Source of the DNA: an uncultured Spirochaetia bacterium
Lineage (GTDB): Bacteria; Spirochaetota; Spirochaetia; JABEVK01
Direction of reading: 5' to 3'
Assembly (NCBI GenBank): GCA_937960645.1
Contig: CALGPJ010000007.1
Location: 62,001 to 126,000 of the forward strand
Length of the DNA stretch: 64,000 nucleotides
The stretch's first letter is position 1, and every line of letters begins with the position of its first letter. The position numbers and the translations under genes were made by a program. Of this stretch, positions 13,264 to 54,440 are shown one piece after another. The notes beneath the pieces were generated by a model that was not told the DNA's origin, made no database searches, and worked only from the letters and a program-made list of their open reading frames with translations.

Positions 13264-14650
13264 CGATATGCTGATTCATCCGCAAGGTCTCGATGTCCTG
13301 GTCATGGGGCTGGGGATCAACGGGGGCGGTCTGGCGGTAACCCGATACTTCGCCGAACGGGGGGCCAGGGTAACCGTGACCGATTTGGGAACGGAGGAGA
13401 GACTTCGGCCCAGTTTGGAAAAACTGTCCGACCTCGACATTCGCTACGTCTTGGGCCGTCACGAGGAAACCGACTTCGATCGTGCCGATCTCGTGGTCAA
13501 AAATCCTGGTGTGCGCCGGGATTCCCCATTTTTGAAGCGCTCCCGCTGTGTGTGCACCGATATACAAATTTTTCTGGCGCAGTGTACGAATCCGGTCTAT
13601 GCGGTCACCGGTTCCAAAGGCAAGAGCTCGACCGTCAGCGCCCTTCACCAGATGTTGGTGCGCCATTTTCCGGGGGCCCTGTTGGGAGGGAACATCACGC
13701 GCTCTCCCCTGGAATTCATCGATCGCCTGGATGGGACATCACCTGTGGTGTTGGAGTTGTCGAGCTGGCAGCTGGGGGATTTGGATCCTCCCCAGTTGCT
13801 TCGGGCGCGGGGAGCGGCCGTGACGAACCTTTACCACGACCACATGAACTACTACACCTCCATGGACGAGTACGCCCAGGACAAGGTGCGGATCTTTGCG
13901 GGACAACAGAAGGAGGATTGGGCTTTCGTCAATCTGGACAATCCCTGGGGAAGTTTTTTTGCGGAAAAAGTCAGGGGCCAGCTCTGTGTTTTTTCGATGA
14001 AAGGCCGATTATCCCATCCCCGAGCGGCGGCATCTGCGTACTATCACCATCAAAGGGGTTACCTGGAATGGAAGGGGCGAAAAGTCGCCGTGGTGCCTGA
14101 GGATCGTCGGGCCATCGGTCTGGCAAACGACTGGGCCCTTTTGTTTGCTGCGGCGATGGCCACCTGTGCAGGAGTACCACCAGATCTTGTCCGTCTTTCC
14201 GCTGCCGAGTTCTCGGGCATCCCCCACCGAATGGAACTCTGTCATCAGTGGCGGGGAGTGCGGTTCATCAACGACACGGCGGCTACGATACCGGAAGCGA
14301 GCACTGTCTCCTATTCCTCGGTAAAAGGAAGGGTTCATTGGATTACCGGAGGTACCGACAAGAACCTCAACCTCGAGCCTTTGGAAAAGCTCGCCAGGGA
14401 GCCCGCCTCCCTTTTGCTGATGGAGGGCAGTGCCACCTCGCGGATGATCGAGGTGTTCGAGCGAAAGGGATGGAAAATCAAGGGTCTCTATCGCGATTTC
14501 GAAAAGGCGTTGAGGGATCTCAGAGATGAATTGCGCGAGGGGGACACGGTATTGATGTCTCCGGGGGCGGCAAGCTTCGAACTGTTCAAAAACGAGTTCG
14601 ACCGCGGGGAAAGTTTCATGCGTTCCTGCCGAAGTGTCTATGAAGAATGA
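13253..14650 (+). CDS. murD: UDP-N-acetylmuramoylalanine--D-glutamate ligase
   Basis: P-loop TGSKGKSST; LELSSWQL; VTNLYHDHMNYY; GIPHRME; GGTDKNL; Mur ligase domain order. Confidence 0.9.
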   Translation: MNLDDMLIHPQGLDVLVMGLGINGGGLAVTRYFAERGARVTVTDLGTEERLRPSLEKLSDLDIRYVLGRHEETDFDRADLVVKNPGVRRDSPFLKRSRCVCTDIQIFLAQCTNPVYAVTGSKGKSSTVSALHQMLVRHFPGALLGGNITRSPLEFIDRLDGTSPVVLELSSWQLGDLDPPQLLRARGAAVTNLYHDHMNYYTSMDEYAQDKVRIFAGQQKEDWAFVNLDNPWGSFFAEKVRGQLCVFSMKGRLSHPRAAASAYYHHQRGYLEWKGRKVAVVPEDRRAIGLANDWALLFAAAMATCAGVPPDLVRLSAAEFSGIPHRMELCHQWRGVRFINDTAATIPEASTVSYSSVKGRVHWITGGTDKNLNLEPLEKLAREPASLLLMEGSATSRMIEVFERKGWKIKGLYRDFEKALRDLRDELREGDTVLMSPGAASFELFKNEFDRGESFMRSCRSVYEE

Positions 14651-16121
14651 AAGCTCCCAGCCCTGGCTCGTACTCATCGTCGATGATGAAAGCTCCATGC
14701 GGGAGATGTTATCCCTGTGGCTTCAAGGTTTGAAGTTTCACGATCGCTCCATCCATGTCCTGGAGGCCTCGTCGGGTTCCGAAGCTCTGACAATTCTGCG
14801 TCGAACCCCGGACATCGCCGTGGTCATCCTGGACCAGGTGATGGACGAACCCACCGAGGGATTGGAAACGGCGCTCAAGATTCGCCAGCTCCTCGGATTC
14901 AAGGAAGTCAGGATCATCCTCAATACAGCCATGAATCAAAGCCTCCCAAAGTTGGATGTTTTGCAACGAGAGGACATCAACGATATTCAATACAAGAACG
15001 ATTTGAGTGCGCTCAAGTTTCAAGCTCTCATCATCACCAATCTCAGGAATTACCGTGATTTGATGAATCTCAGGTTGGCCGAAGCCTTGTCGACGCGTCT
15101 GCTGCAAATTAACAACAGGCTTCAAAGCTCGGAAACTGAAGAGGATTTGTATCACAACACCATCTCCGGAATCCACTTCACGTGTGCTGCGATACCCCCC
15201 ATGCCACCTAAATCCAATCCTGAAGTTTTTATCCTAAAAGGCGGTGAGGAATGGACTATCCTCGAGGGATCGGGCAGGTTCGAACGGCACAGGGGTGAAA
15301 GTTTTTTTCTTGTCGAAAAGGACCTGCGGGATGAGTTGATCCTTCAAGCGGTTGAAGGGGGCAAGGCAATTTGGAAGACCAACTACTTCATTTACCCTTT
15401 CAAGCTATCCGATGGGGCGGCTTTTGCCATTGGGGCCATGTCACCGGTGGAATGGGACGTCTATACCATCAATTATCTCCGGCTCTTCGTCCAACGAATT
15501 CCTTCCATTTTTGAACGTCTGGCCCTCATTTACCGGCTCAAACAACGCCAGGACGAACTTCAGCGTGCGCTCAAAGAACGGGAGGTTCTGCTTCGTGAGG
15601 TCCACCACCGTGTCAAAAACAACCTGCAAATCATCTCCAGCCTGATCTCGATGGACAGCAGCATCGAGAGGATCCAGGACCGTATCTACAGCATGGCCCT
15701 GGTCCATGATCAGTTGTATCATATGCAGCGTTTTTCGGAGGTCGACCTGGTTCAATACCTCGGGAGCCTCTGTTCCGATTTAGCCAACGCCTTTCAGCTG
15801 GGCGATCGGCTGAGTATCGAGTCCGCCTCCAACAGCATTTTTATTCCCTATGACCGAGCCATTCCGTTGGGTCTGGTCGTGAATGAACTCGTGGTGAACG
15901 CCGCAAAATACGCGATCAGGATGAACCCCGAGGGGAAAATTCACGTGAAAATCCTGTCCGAATCACCCATAATTCTTCGAGTCGAGGATGAGGGTCCCGG
16001 ATTTGAAGAGAAGCCCGATGGTACGGGTTTGAAGCTGGTGCGGATGCTCCTCGAGCAGCTCAAAGGCGAGTTGAGAACATTTTTCCAGAATGGTCAGAAG
16101 ATGGAGGTGTACGTCCCATGA
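14640..16121 (+). CDS. Hybrid response regulator / histidine kinase (REC, DUF3369-like linker, HisKA_2 + HATPase)
   Basis: REC (IVDDESS...VVILDQVMD); linker REDINDIQYKNDLSALKFQALIITNLRNYRDLM; HisKA_2 signature LLREVHHRVKNNLQIISSLISM; HATPase NELVVNAAKYA...VEDEGPGF. Confidence 0.88.
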   Translation: MKNESSQPWLVLIVDDESSMREMLSLWLQGLKFHDRSIHVLEASSGSEALTILRRTPDIAVVILDQVMDEPTEGLETALKIRQLLGFKEVRIILNTAMNQSLPKLDVLQREDINDIQYKNDLSALKFQALIITNLRNYRDLMNLRLAEALSTRLLQINNRLQSSETEEDLYHNTISGIHFTCAAIPPMPPKSNPEVFILKGGEEWTILEGSGRFERHRGESFFLVEKDLRDELILQAVEGGKAIWKTNYFIYPFKLSDGAAFAIGAMSPVEWDVYTINYLRLFVQRIPSIFERLALIYRLKQRQDELQRALKEREVLLREVHHRVKNNLQIISSLISMDSSIERIQDRIYSMALVHDQLYHMQRFSEVDLVQYLGSLCSDLANAFQLGDRLSIESASNSIFIPYDRAIPLGLVVNELVVNAAKYAIRMNPEGKIHVKILSESPIILRVEDEGPGFEEKPDGTGLKLVRMLLEQLKGELRTFFQNGQKMEVYVP

Positions 16122-17278
16122 ACAATACCCTCCTCATTCGAACGCTGGGGCGATTGTTTTTCATCTATCAGCGAAAGGTAGGCAGGGTCAGGAATCTTGA
16201 AATCGACTCACTACAGACCCTCCAGGAGGTGTATGAGGGTTTTTGGAGAAAGAAGTACCGGTTGATCCTTGCTTTCCAACACCCCAGCACGGTCGAACCC
16301 GCCTTATGGCCCGCCTTGTTAGCACGGGAATTTCGCAAGCATCTCCAAAAGAGCGGCAGTCGTATCCTGCCTTTCGCTCACCTGGTTTACGATCACCGAA
16401 TTCCCTTCTGGGCCGGGGACTACCTCAACTGGCTTCTTCCTGCGGTGGGAGCGGTCCCGATACGCCGCGGGATGCCGGACAAGGCGGGACTCGATCGAAT
16501 TCGACGCCTTTTGCTCCAGGGGCCCTGGCCGCTCATGATGGCGCCCGAGGGTGGCAGGACCTGGAGGCAGGATCGCTGGGCGGAAATCGAGGATGGCCTG
16601 GGTCTTCTGGCCTTGTGGACCTACCACGATCTTTGGAAAAAAGACGGAAAAGGTGAGGTGCGTATCCTTCCGTTGCGATGTTTTTTTCATTGGCCGACCT
16701 GGTCCCGGCCCCTCCTGCTGTCCACATTAAAAGCCTGGGAAAACAGTTTGGGCATCCGGCCATCGGAAAAGGGTCATTCCCGAATCCCATTTCTTTTTCG
16801 AGCCCTGGCTATTCGAGCGGGTTGGGGAGGGGGCGAGGGGCAGGATTTCGATACGTATCGGATTTCCCTGGCAAATCGCTTATTGGCACAGGCCGGAGGC
16901 AATCCGGACGGCCCCTTTTTGAAGGAATTACGGTATCGCGAAGGAATCTTGTACCTGCCCTACCGAAAACGCCTTCCGGATCGAGTGAGGGTAACGGCAA
17001 ATCTCCTCGGTGCCGCCGAACTCCTTTGGTACATCGATTACTCCTGGGATCAGGATTTCTTCTCCCATCTCGACATGGCCTGGGAGGTCCTGGAAACCCT
17101 GAAAACTTTTGCAGAGCTGCTCGGACTAAACCACCTCGTACCGAATTATCCGAATCTTCTTCGTGATGCCGAGCTAAGGACGGGGCAACCCATCGATCTG
17201 AGTCAGGCCCCCAACATCAAAGATAAGGCGGGGACCCTTGCATGGATTCGCGAGAAAGTGCAACATGACGGTCGCTGA
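16118..17278 (+). CDS. PlsC-like acyltransferase family protein
   Basis: HPSTVEP in place of HX4D, VGAVPIRRGM, MAPEGGRTW (FPEGTR-like). 4-nt overlap with the upstream kinase. Confidence 0.6.
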   Translation: MNNTLLIRTLGRLFFIYQRKVGRVRNLEIDSLQTLQEVYEGFWRKKYRLILAFQHPSTVEPALWPALLAREFRKHLQKSGSRILPFAHLVYDHRIPFWAGDYLNWLLPAVGAVPIRRGMPDKAGLDRIRRLLLQGPWPLMMAPEGGRTWRQDRWAEIEDGLGLLALWTYHDLWKKDGKGEVRILPLRCFFHWPTWSRPLLLSTLKAWENSLGIRPSEKGHSRIPFLFRALAIRAGWGGGEGQDFDTYRISLANRLLAQAGGNPDGPFLKELRYREGILYLPYRKRLPDRVRVTANLLGAAELLWYIDYSWDQDFFSHLDMAWEVLETLKTFAELLGLNHLVPNYPNLLRDAELRTGQPIDLSQAPNIKDKAGTLAWIREKVQHDGR

Positions 17279-18008: not shown

Positions 18009-21000
18009 ATGTTGTTCGAAAAAATCTTCGAAAAAGCCAACTCAAATGATCCCATTTTTTTGGATGTCGGGGTAGAAGTCCGCGAGGAACTGCGGGAGAT
18101 AAGTTTGACCATGGCCCGCAGCGGTCATGTTTATTTTTACGATTATAGTCAGGAAGAATCTTTCCCCTATGCCCCCTTTCTTCAGTACGTTCGTCCCCTG
18201 ATTCCCTCCATTCAGGCTTACGCCCCACATCGCATGCTCTGGAAATCTTTTGCCGCCGGGGGGGTGCTCTCCGACACCCAGGAATTTTTACTCGAAGAGG
18301 TCGATTATGAGGTTTTCCGTATCCGTAAGACCTTGATCGAACTCTTTCGCAGCTGGGACAGCAACAATTCCGGTAACTGGATCGTCCTACATGCCCTCCA
18401 TATGGCACCTCCCTCGGTATGGTCGATTTTGCCCGCCATTTTGGAGCTGGGACCCAAGGCCCGCCTCGTTCTGACCTGGGATAGCCGGGCCCTTCTGTCC
18501 CTGGAATACTTCGAGAACGATATCGCTCCTCACTATGAGGACCTCAAAAACCGTGCCTCGGTGTATCAATCCTATTCCGCTTCAATGGATGTTGAAGAGG
18601 TGGTTCCTAAAATCACCAAACAAGGATTTTGGGCAGCGAGGAGTTTCCTGGCCTTTTCGGATGGCAAAATATACGGGGAACAACTCATTGAACAGATCAA
18701 TTTCGACTCTGTCGAAGAGGAGGTTTACTTTCGTCGAGCCTATGCGGATTGTCTTTTGTGTCTGGGGCTCAACGAGGATGCCGTGATGCACTACCAGCTG
18801 ACCCAGAAGATATGCCGGGATGCCAATCTGCAGGAGCTTTTGGTCAGCATCCTCCGACGGCTCTCCGCTCAGGCCATTCAAAAAGGTGACACCATCGAAG
18901 CCGACCGTCAGGCCCAGCAGGCCTACGATATCAGCATGAAAAAACTTTCCGATCGCGATAAGGTTCTGAGTTTGTTTTATGTGCTCTACAGCCGGGACAA
19001 CCTGACGCGGTTCATTCAAAGTGTGAACGACGACTCGGTCGTACAGCTCGAGAACCTGATCAATGGGTTAAGGCAATCCAGTTGGAATGTTCATCTGGCC
19101 GCTCTTTTGACCAACGGCATATTTGCCCTGACATACTACTGGAAGACTGGTCCCGAAAAAGCATTACAGAGGGTGCAGGAGGGAATCGCTCTTGCCCGGG
19201 AAATTGGGAATCAATACCGGCTTGCCATTGGATACCAAACCTTAGGGATACTATATCAGAATCAGGAACATTCCTCCGAGGCCCTCGACGCCTATCAAAC
19301 CAGTCTCAAGTATCGCAAACAGCTCAACATGTCCCTTCCCTATGCTCAGGCGTTGAACGGCCTGGGGTATTTTTACTACAGTTTGGGAGATTATCAATCA
19401 TCTTATAAGGTTTTGAAGGAATCGCTGGACATCCTGCAAAAGACGGACAACTACTCCGAGATTGCAGCCACCCTCTACAACCTGGGGACCCTGTATTTTT
19501 ATGCGCATCATTGGGAAGCGGCTATTTATTTCCTGAATTCGGCCCTGACCATCATGGACAACTTAAAAATCGACAATCTCCCCTACAATCACCGCATCGA
19601 TATTTTGTCGGTGTTGGGCCTGGCCTATCTCAAGAATGGCCAGGACCCCAGGGCCCTGGAAATCGAGTGGCAGGCACGTCGCATCTACCTTCAACTCAAA
19701 ACAGAGTTTCGTTACGAGCATTTCGAGCTTTTGTTGAACATCCGGGAGTCGATCGAAAACCGTAAAGACCAGGCACGACAGCGGTTCGAGATTCAGCTGA
19801 AGGAATTGGACAAAAAAATTGTAAATTTTCGGTACGTCAAGCTGCTCTGTTGCGTCGAAGCCTTCGAGGCTTTGGGCGACCCAGAGTTTTTGCAGGAGGG
19901 TCTTAAAGCGCTCGAAGGCCGCAACGACAACGCCTTTTTTCAGGAGATTTTCACCAGCTTGTTGGCAGGTGAAAAAATCAAACCTTACAATCTCCCGTCT
20001 CCTCCCCGGGTGGATCTCGACAGGATTCTGGAGAGGGGCAGGAAAGACGCTCTCATCGTCCGCCTTCAAAAGAAGCTGGAGGAAGCACACTTCTTCTACA
20101 GCTACTTCGATGGCATCCTGCATGCCAAGTCCCGTGACGATGTCGTCGATGTCGCTTACAAGATTCTTTTTCAAACCTATCCCGCGGATAGTTTGAAGGT
20201 CTGGTTGGCCCAGGACCAGGAGCAGATACCCTCTGCCTGGGACTGTGTATACCGCCCCTGGAACCAGCCTCCGACACCCGAGAACCTGCGCTGGCTTTTC
20301 GAGGGGCCGCCTCCGGGCTGGATTCATGTTTCGACCAAGGAGGACGATATACCCGCCCACGCTCTTTATGGCCCCGTACGCCGATTGGACAAGAACACGG
20401 AGAGGGACCTCAAACTGGCCCTGAATCAACTCATTCTCAGTCTCAAACTCAAACTTGCTTACGAGAAACTGGAAAAGGCGGCCACCCTCGACCCTGTGAC
20501 CGGTCTCTACAACAAGTTCGAGTTGGAGCGCCGCCTCACCTTCGAAGAAAAACGGATCAAGCGGCATTTCGGAAGGCCGGTCAGCCGGCTGTCCATCCTC
20601 AAGGTGGACATCGACCATTTCGGTCCCTTCGTGGATCACTACGGCCATGAGGCAGGGGACCTCATCCTTCGCTGGTTTGCGATGGGCATCAAGGAGGCCA
20701 TTCGAGAATCCGACTTTGCGGGTCGTCTGGACAACGATGAATTCCTCATCATCCTTTCCGAAACCGACGCCCAGAGCGCCCCGATGGTGGCACGGCGGCT
20801 TCTCAAAAAGGTCGAAAACCGGAGCTATGTTTGGGAGGCTCTGCAGGAACTCAAACAGTCCTCGATTAAATTGGAAAAACCTCTGGGTTGCAGCATCGGA
20901 ATCGCTCAATTCAACTACGACAACAACGTCAATCTCAACGAGGCCCTGGAAAAGGCAGACTGGGCACTCAAGATGGCCAAGGAGAAGGGTGGTAATCAAA

Positions 21001-21023
21001 TCGTCATCGCCGACCAGGACTGA
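18009..21023 (+). CDS. Large protein: STAND/AAA_16-like remnant, TPR array, C-terminal GGDEF-like domain
   Basis: ESFPYAPFLQYVRPL and WIVLHALHMAPPSVWSIL resemble MalT/AAA_16-type STAND domains but no Walker A is present; several TPR units; C-terminal DPVTGLYNKFELERRL...DIDHFGPFVDHYGHEAGD...RLDNDEFLIIL. Confidence 0.85.
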   Translation: MLFEKIFEKANSNDPIFLDVGVEVREELREISLTMARSGHVYFYDYSQEESFPYAPFLQYVRPLIPSIQAYAPHRMLWKSFAAGGVLSDTQEFLLEEVDYEVFRIRKTLIELFRSWDSNNSGNWIVLHALHMAPPSVWSILPAILELGPKARLVLTWDSRALLSLEYFENDIAPHYEDLKNRASVYQSYSASMDVEEVVPKITKQGFWAARSFLAFSDGKIYGEQLIEQINFDSVEEEVYFRRAYADCLLCLGLNEDAVMHYQLTQKICRDANLQELLVSILRRLSAQAIQKGDTIEADRQAQQAYDISMKKLSDRDKVLSLFYVLYSRDNLTRFIQSVNDDSVVQLENLINGLRQSSWNVHLAALLTNGIFALTYYWKTGPEKALQRVQEGIALAREIGNQYRLAIGYQTLGILYQNQEHSSEALDAYQTSLKYRKQLNMSLPYAQALNGLGYFYYSLGDYQSSYKVLKESLDILQKTDNYSEIAATLYNLGTLYFYAHHWEAAIYFLNSALTIMDNLKIDNLPYNHRIDILSVLGLAYLKNGQDPRALEIEWQARRIYLQLKTEFRYEHFELLLNIRESIENRKDQARQRFEIQLKELDKKIVNFRYVKLLCCVEAFEALGDPEFLQEGLKALEGRNDNAFFQEIFTSLLAGEKIKPYNLPSPPRVDLDRILERGRKDALIVRLQKKLEEAHFFYSYFDGILHAKSRDDVVDVAYKILFQTYPADSLKVWLAQDQEQIPSAWDCVYRPWNQPPTPENLRWLFEGPPPGWIHVSTKEDDIPAHALYGPVRRLDKNTERDLKLALNQLILSLKLKLAYEKLEKAATLDPVTGLYNKFELERRLTFEEKRIKRHFGRPVSRLSILKVDIDHFGPFVDHYGHEAGDLILRWFAMGIKEAIRESDFAGRLDNDEFLIILSETDAQSAPMVARRLLKKVENRSYVWEALQELKQSSIKLEKPLGCSIGIAQFNYDNNVNLNEALEKADWALKMAKEKGGNQIVIADQD

Positions 21024-53399: not shown

Positions 53400-54440
53400 A
53401 TGGTAAATGTGTCGATCAAGGCAGTCAGCAGGGAGGATTTGGAGCGTGAGATCTTCGATCTTAAAAACCTGCTCACCATTTCCAAGAGTCTAAACTCAAC
53501 GCTAGATTACAATATTCTGACGGACAGCATCCTTTACACCTGCCTTGGTTCCCTTACCGTGGTCAGGGCCGGTTTCCTTTCGAAAAAAAGCATCGACTCG
53601 AACGAATTTTCCCTTCATCGTAACTATCTGGGCTTCGAATTGGACCACAATCAGGACTATGGCATTCCGGAAAAGGACCCCTTGATCGACTACTTCGCCC
53701 GAAACACGCGCTGTCATTCCCTGGAAATGTTGCGCGAAATCTCCGCTGAGTCCCAATTCGATCTGAGGGCCCTCGAAAGACTTTGCCCTAAAATCATCGT
53801 TCCCATGAAAGCCAAGGGACAGATCAACGGAATTCTGGTTCTTGGCGAAAAGATCGACGGTAGCGATTTTACCCACCGTGACCGCGACTACCTGGAAAAC
53901 ATCGCCAACTTTGCCGCCATTGCCATTCACAACGCCTTCCTTTTCGAAATGACCACAACCGACATGATGACCAAGCTGAAGATGAAACATTTCTTCATGA
54001 ATTCTCTCAAGGAAAAGATGGAACTCAACAAGACAGGGGATTTGAGCATCGTCATGCTCGACATCGACCATTTCAAAGTCTTGAACGATACCTACGGCCA
54101 TCTAACCGGCGATGAGGTCCTGAAACAGGTTGCCCGTGTCATTCAGGATACAGTCCGACAGGTGGATATTGCGGCACGTTATGGGGGAGAGGAATTCATC
54201 CTACTTTTGCCCGATGCCAACATCAGTTTGGCAAAAATCGTGGCCGAACGTATCCGCCGGAATATCGCCGAACATCCCACGGTGATCGATGGGGTCAAAT
54301 ACCCGGTAACAGTGAGCCTGGGGGTTGCCCAGTACGATCCCCAGCGCGATTTGACCGAGCGGCACTTCGTGGAGAGGGCCGACCAGGCTCTTTACCGGTC
54401 CAAAGAACATGGTCGCAATCAGACGAGCGTGGCCCCGTGA
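53400..54440 (+). CDS. GAF-domain diguanylate cyclase
   Basis: GAF-like N terminus; LDIDHFKVLNDTYGHLTGDEVLKQVA...ARYGGEEFILLLPDA (intact GGEEF). Confidence 0.92.
   Translation: MVNVSIKAVSREDLEREIFDLKNLLTISKSLNSTLDYNILTDSILYTCLGSLTVVRAGFLSKKSIDSNEFSLHRNYLGFELDHNQDYGIPEKDPLIDYFARNTRCHSLEMLREISAESQFDLRALERLCPKIIVPMKAKGQINGILVLGEKIDGSDFTHRDRDYLENIANFAAIAIHNAFLFEMTTTDMMTKLKMKHFFMNSLKEKMELNKTGDLSIVMLDIDHFKVLNDTYGHLTGDEVLKQVARVIQDTVRQVDIAARYGGEEFILLLPDANISLAKIVAERIRRNIAEHPTVIDGVKYPVTVSLGVAQYDPQRDLTERHFVERADQALYRSKEHGRNQTSVAP

Follow-up and report, generated by a model that had tools for sequence, protein, structure and literature searches.

One gene in the analyzed stretch of DNA from an uncultured member of the Spirochaetia (64,000 nucleotides, here referred to as the window) encodes a protein in which a domain resembling the core of STAND ATPases is followed by TPRs and a GGDEF-type domain (Table 1). 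The prevailing picture of STAND proteins is that of switches governed by ATP and ADP. This gene raises the question of what such a protein could be doing without its nucleotide-binding motifs and what the cyclase-like domain at its C terminus contributes.

Table 1. Features of the window gene and its product
Feature	Residues	Position in window	Strand	Basis or remarks
Whole gene: P-loop-less STAND-derived N-domain, TPR array, linker, degenerate GGDEF	1004 aa	18009..21023	+
N-terminal pseudo-nucleotide-binding domain	1-203	18009..18617	+	Profile homology to AAA_16/STAND nucleotide-binding domains; no Pfam match of its own
Lost P-loop position, VEVREELR	22-29	18072..18095	+	Homologues have GE.G.GK[ST] (alignment)
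PYAPF box	54-58	18168..18182	+	Conserved, common to P-loop AAA_16 proteins; P56 nearly invariant
Degenerate Walker B strand and loop, WIVLHALHMAPPS	124-136	18378..18416	+	Alignment with P-loop homologues
TPR-type helical array	about 204-655	18618..19973	+	Pfam TPRs clearest about 410-520; helical hairpins in low-confidence models
Coil and uncharacterized linker	656-820	19974..20468	+	No Pfam match; place of the GAF domain in L194
GGDEF-family domain, degenerate	825-997	20481..20999	+	PF00990, E 1.8e-29, 103 bits (cutoff 23.8)
Retained I-site RxxD, RESD	899-902	20703..20714	+	Identical in orthologue
DNDEF replacing GG(D/E)EF	908-912	20730..20744	+	DNNEF in orthologue

Gene and gene neighborhood

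The open reading frame is complete and uninterrupted. Its frame comprises only 1008 codons from stop to stop, so it cannot be extended upstream, and the original prediction was right that the 5' flank leaves no space for a P-loop. An orthologue from another assembly (locus L011), 60% identical to the window protein, also lacks the P-loop, and the gene order murD, HWE kinase, mtgA, window gene, mtaB is the same at both loci. A frameshift or assembly error that would hide a P-loop upstream was considered and is excluded by this orthologue, which shares both the absence and the gene order. With the frame open, the gene order conserved, and the P-loop also missing from 46 further members of the family described below, the chance that this is a misassembled, frameshifted, or decaying gene is negligible.

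The same conserved string of genes around mtgA includes a 495-aa protein (positions 14634-16121) that combines a response regulator receiver with a HisKA_2/HWE-type histidine kinase. Between its gene and mtgA, the window has a 386-aa open reading frame (positions 16118-17278) with no Pfam match, for which tblastn found no counterpart in the syntenic stretch of L011.

Ancestry of the N-terminal domain

The N-terminal domain of the window protein gave no Pfam match, neither to AAA_16 (PF13191) at its curated cutoff nor to any other family. Among its relatives, there are weak matches to AAA_16 and AAA_22 (in L048 and L050, below the AAA_16 cutoff), and the family profile has a graded tail of matches that runs into P-loop AAA_16 proteins. 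Because the first three P-loop sequences used for comparison came from the query profile itself, the comparison was rerun with a set of AAA_16 sequences found independently via PF13191. Against this independent P-loop set, hhalign aligned 174 columns with a probability of 96.5 and an E value of 8e-10; among the controls, the reversed profile gave an E value of 0.18 and the best of 30 column shuffles, 0.39. The alignment is collinear from strand β1 past the P-loop position and the PYxPF box into Walker B. A profile comparison of the kind proposed with the original prediction has recovered the relationship of this region to AAA_16.

A search of the PDB sequences with the family profile returned only TPR matches, as the profile takes in the first TPR, along with some unconvincing hits. 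AlphaFold2 models of residues 1 to 330 and of the full-length protein, built from the window protein and the L011 orthologue only, were both poor (mean pLDDT of 45 in each case), so the AAA fold of the N-domain is read from the sequence profiles. The low-confidence models and the missing Pfam match would also suit an unrelated α/β domain with an accidental likeness to STAND proteins, but the hhalign result with its reversed and shuffled controls, the AAA_16/AAA_22 matches in relatives, and the collinearity of about 174 columns through β1, PYxPF, and Walker B make this highly improbable. Together with the graded tail of profile matches and the single split in the tree described below, the same evidence bears out the proposed descent from a STAND/AAA_16 ATPase, and the N-domain is very probably a P-loop-less STAND derivative.

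Lost and retained motifs

The absence of GxxxxGK[ST] noted in the original prediction holds: no G....GK[ST] pattern was found in the relevant region of the window protein, and VEVREELR stands in its place. The suggestion that the N terminus begins just after Walker A has to be revised, as the protein starts before strand β1 and the P-loop position is internal (residues about 22 to 29). The description of Walker B as degraded, with no acidic pair, agrees with the alignment, which has WIVLHALHMAPPSV in the window protein at the position of VLFLDDLQWADEGS in the P-loop relatives; across the strand and loop, WIVLHALHMAPPS versus VLFLDDLQWADEG, the acidic residues are gone. The presumptive phosphate-holding region is highly variable in both length and sequence across the family. 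In the low-confidence models, the last core strand (at residue ∼155) is separated from the helical array (starting at ∼204 to 219) by ∼50 to 60 residues.

A P-loop-less family in Spirochaetota

Searches at the class level and across the phylum Spirochaetota, with all retrieved proteins scanned and membership set at a profile E value of ≤1e-9, delineated a P-loop-less family of 48 proteins, the window protein and 47 others. GxxxxGK[ST] was found in none of the 48, including the orthologue and all other 46 members, which answers the question whether relatives keep the P-loop. The same domain arrangement without the motif recurs in four paralogues from the window genome and in many relatives. In three members (L090, L092, and L093), the N-domain starts only at about strand β2, so that the P-loop region is missing altogether; their GGDEF domains are intact. 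The weak tail of the family profile consists almost entirely of P-loop AAA_16 proteins, apart from one unassigned protein, L198.

In an unrooted maximum-likelihood tree of the 48 P-loop-less domains and 20 P-loop AAA_16 domains, one branch separates the two groups (support values, 99/96; 98% of bootstraps), as predicted for a single loss. The direction of the change is not contained in an unrooted tree as such, but the presence of the P-loop is the general state in AAA_16. Being common to about 48 related proteins, the loss of the P-loop is a stable, reused sensor design in Spirochaetota rather than the mark of a damaged gene. No account of this P-loop-less family turned up in literature searches.

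TPR array and interchangeable outputs

As originally described, the N-domain is followed by a TPR array, recognized by Pfam, and a C-terminal cyclase-like domain. The literal GGDEF motif was counted in 30 family members, and the GGDEF domains of the family mostly look active. Other members end in different output domains: HisKA/HATPase in L166, a histidine kinase with REC in L168, and SpoIIE in L167. The occurrence of GGDEF, HisKA/HATPase, HK-REC, and SpoIIE outputs on the same N-domain/TPR chassis indicates that this chassis is modular. Another pair of family members, from the genomes G000 and G001 (L045 and L087), has degenerate cyclase motifs, GGALF and GGSIF, and keeps an I-site, RAVD.

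The original prediction missed the family-wide extent of the loss, the interchangeable outputs, and the combination in the window protein of a degenerate GGDEF domain with a kept I-site.

The degenerate GGDEF domain

Neither the (G/S/A)G(D/E)EF motif nor the substrate-binding residues are present in the GGDEF domain of the window protein. Further changes, all shared with the orthologue, include FK to FG, the guanine-contacting N to V, and GR to GG; the metal-binding D867 and E911 are kept. These residue roles are taken to be those established for PleD. Between the window protein and the orthologue, identity is 76% in the GGDEF domain, 58% in the TPRs, and 47% in the N-domain, and dN (NG86) is 0.19 for the GGDEF domain and 0.51 for the N-domain. 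The degenerate cyclase domain is therefore under the strongest constraint of the three, in keeping with a module that functions without enzymatic activity.

The pattern fits a receptor for c-di-GMP or else a pseudo-cyclase that binds a partner, and the domain is very probably not catalytic. A diguanylate cyclase that has diverged but is still active could be argued from the good Pfam score, from the kept D867 and E911, and from the existence of active A/SGDEF enzymes, including some diguanylate cyclases with an altered first glycine (PMC3974145). Here, however, both glycines are replaced by D-N, the guanine-contacting N by V, and the K of FK by G, and the orthologue carries DNNEF. Two altered glycines combined with the N and K losses are more severe than a change of the first glycine, and an active cyclase is very unlikely.

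The window genome has 16 GGDEF, 6 EAL, and 4 PilZ matches, so that c-di-GMP signaling exists in this organism. One separate GGDEF protein with the GGEEF signature is encoded in the window itself (positions 53955-54434, within a 350-aa frame).

Comparison with known systems

In MalT/PknK-type STAND ATPases, a nucleotide-binding-domain core is combined with a sensor made of superhelical repeats and an effector domain at one end (PMC4381067). The window protein resembles these AAA_16 (PF13191) proteins in having a sequence-related core, a repeat sensor, and a terminal effector. Unlike them, it lacks Walker A and the Walker B acids and, judging by the low-confidence models, may offer only limited space for HD and WHD segments that would complete a NOD.

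The order of domains in the window protein, NBD-TPR-(GAF)-GGDEF, is also found in L194, a 1609-aa Pkinase-AAA_16-TPR-GAF-GGDEF protein in which about 280 residues separate AAA_16 from the first TPR recognized by Pfam. What sets L194 apart from the window protein is a kinase domain at the N terminus, an intact P-loop (GEFGIGKT), and an intact GGDEF motif; it likely represents the ancestral type of build with the P-loop. Among 12 AAA_16 loci from close relatives, no P-loop protein with a GGDEF domain was found; L194 came up at the phylum level. A paper from 2005 described a kinase-TPR-GGDEF protein of Clostridium thermocellum (PMC1262709).

By analogy, the closest functional precedent is BcsE. 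This protein has an N-domain, predicted to be RecA-like and to have lost Walker A, on which its oligomerization depends, a degenerate REC domain, and a degenerate GGDEF domain that binds c-di-GMP via RxxD (PMC7439463). By description, the window protein similarly combines a P-loop-NTPase-like N-domain without Walker A and a degenerate GGDEF domain with RxxD. BcsE differs in that its N-domain is predicted to be RecA-like and not derived from AAA_16, it has no TPR array, and it is part of the cellulose secretion system. PopA and PelD are likewise degenerate-GGDEF receptors that bind c-di-GMP at the I-site (PMC5052742, PMC3974145, PMC7439463). The window protein shares with them the degenerate GGDEF domain with a retained RxxD; PopA and PelD have other input domains, and their c-di-GMP binding has been shown, whereas for the window protein it is predicted.

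Proposed role

The window gene product is probably a cytosolic signaling scaffold of STAND-type descent. Given the loss of the P-loop and the Walker B acids, its former nucleotide-binding domain probably no longer acts as an ATP/ADP switch, and the absence of an ATP-driven switch can be predicted with considerable confidence. Instead, the N-domain would serve as a fixed cap or as a protein-protein or oligomerization surface for the TPR array. An alternative is that the N-domain is still a ligand-gated switch, with a nucleotide or another ligand bound in a remnant pocket without the P-loop. Strand β1 and the PYAPF box persist, and one Walker B acid is kept in some relatives (e.g., VVVVDNAQ in L050), but the phosphate-holding region varies greatly within the family and the window protein has no Walker B acid at all, so that such a switch is quite improbable. 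For the original view of a sensory scaffold without nucleotide binding, this means that the loss of motifs stands, the lack of binding would follow from it, and "sensory scaffold" is a fitting, if putative, description.

The TPR array of this scaffold may sense a protein or a small ligand. As the catalytic residues of the GGDEF domain are lost and the I-site is kept, the signal would probably be read out without making c-di-GMP. In the simplest case, the protein is a candidate c-di-GMP receptor, in which occupancy of the I-site would alter the binding of a partner; I-site binding is a tentative assignment with somewhat less than even odds, and the strong conservation of the GGDEF domain would also fit a role in dimerization without c-di-GMP binding.

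GGDEF enzymes form their active site from two half-sites. The degenerate domain could, accordingly, pair with active GGDEF paralogues and tune or poison the shared active site, the I-site being incidental. The genome does encode paralogues with this architecture, and in two of these (L042 and L044) the GGDEF motif is intact, but the I-site is retained unchanged within the best-conserved block, and pairing of this kind seems unlikely. The preferred reading, an ATP-independent TPR sensor or scaffold with a degenerate GGDEF domain that is read non-enzymatically, perhaps as a c-di-GMP receptor like BcsE, is assigned a probability of roughly 0.6 from the sequence comparisons.

Implications

At the level of the family, the evidence tilts slightly toward a single loss of the P-loop by a STAND ancestor in Spirochaetota, which would have given rise to a nucleotide-free core and TPR chassis with interchangeable outputs (GGDEF, histidine kinase, and SpoIIE phosphatase), that is, to STAND-like signaling without ATP switching. 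A widespread family that has no nucleotide site and keeps the core, the repeats, and several enzymatic outputs provides a natural test of the non-switching role of this core. For the uncultured spirochaete relative itself, the analysis names a candidate c-di-GMP receptor.
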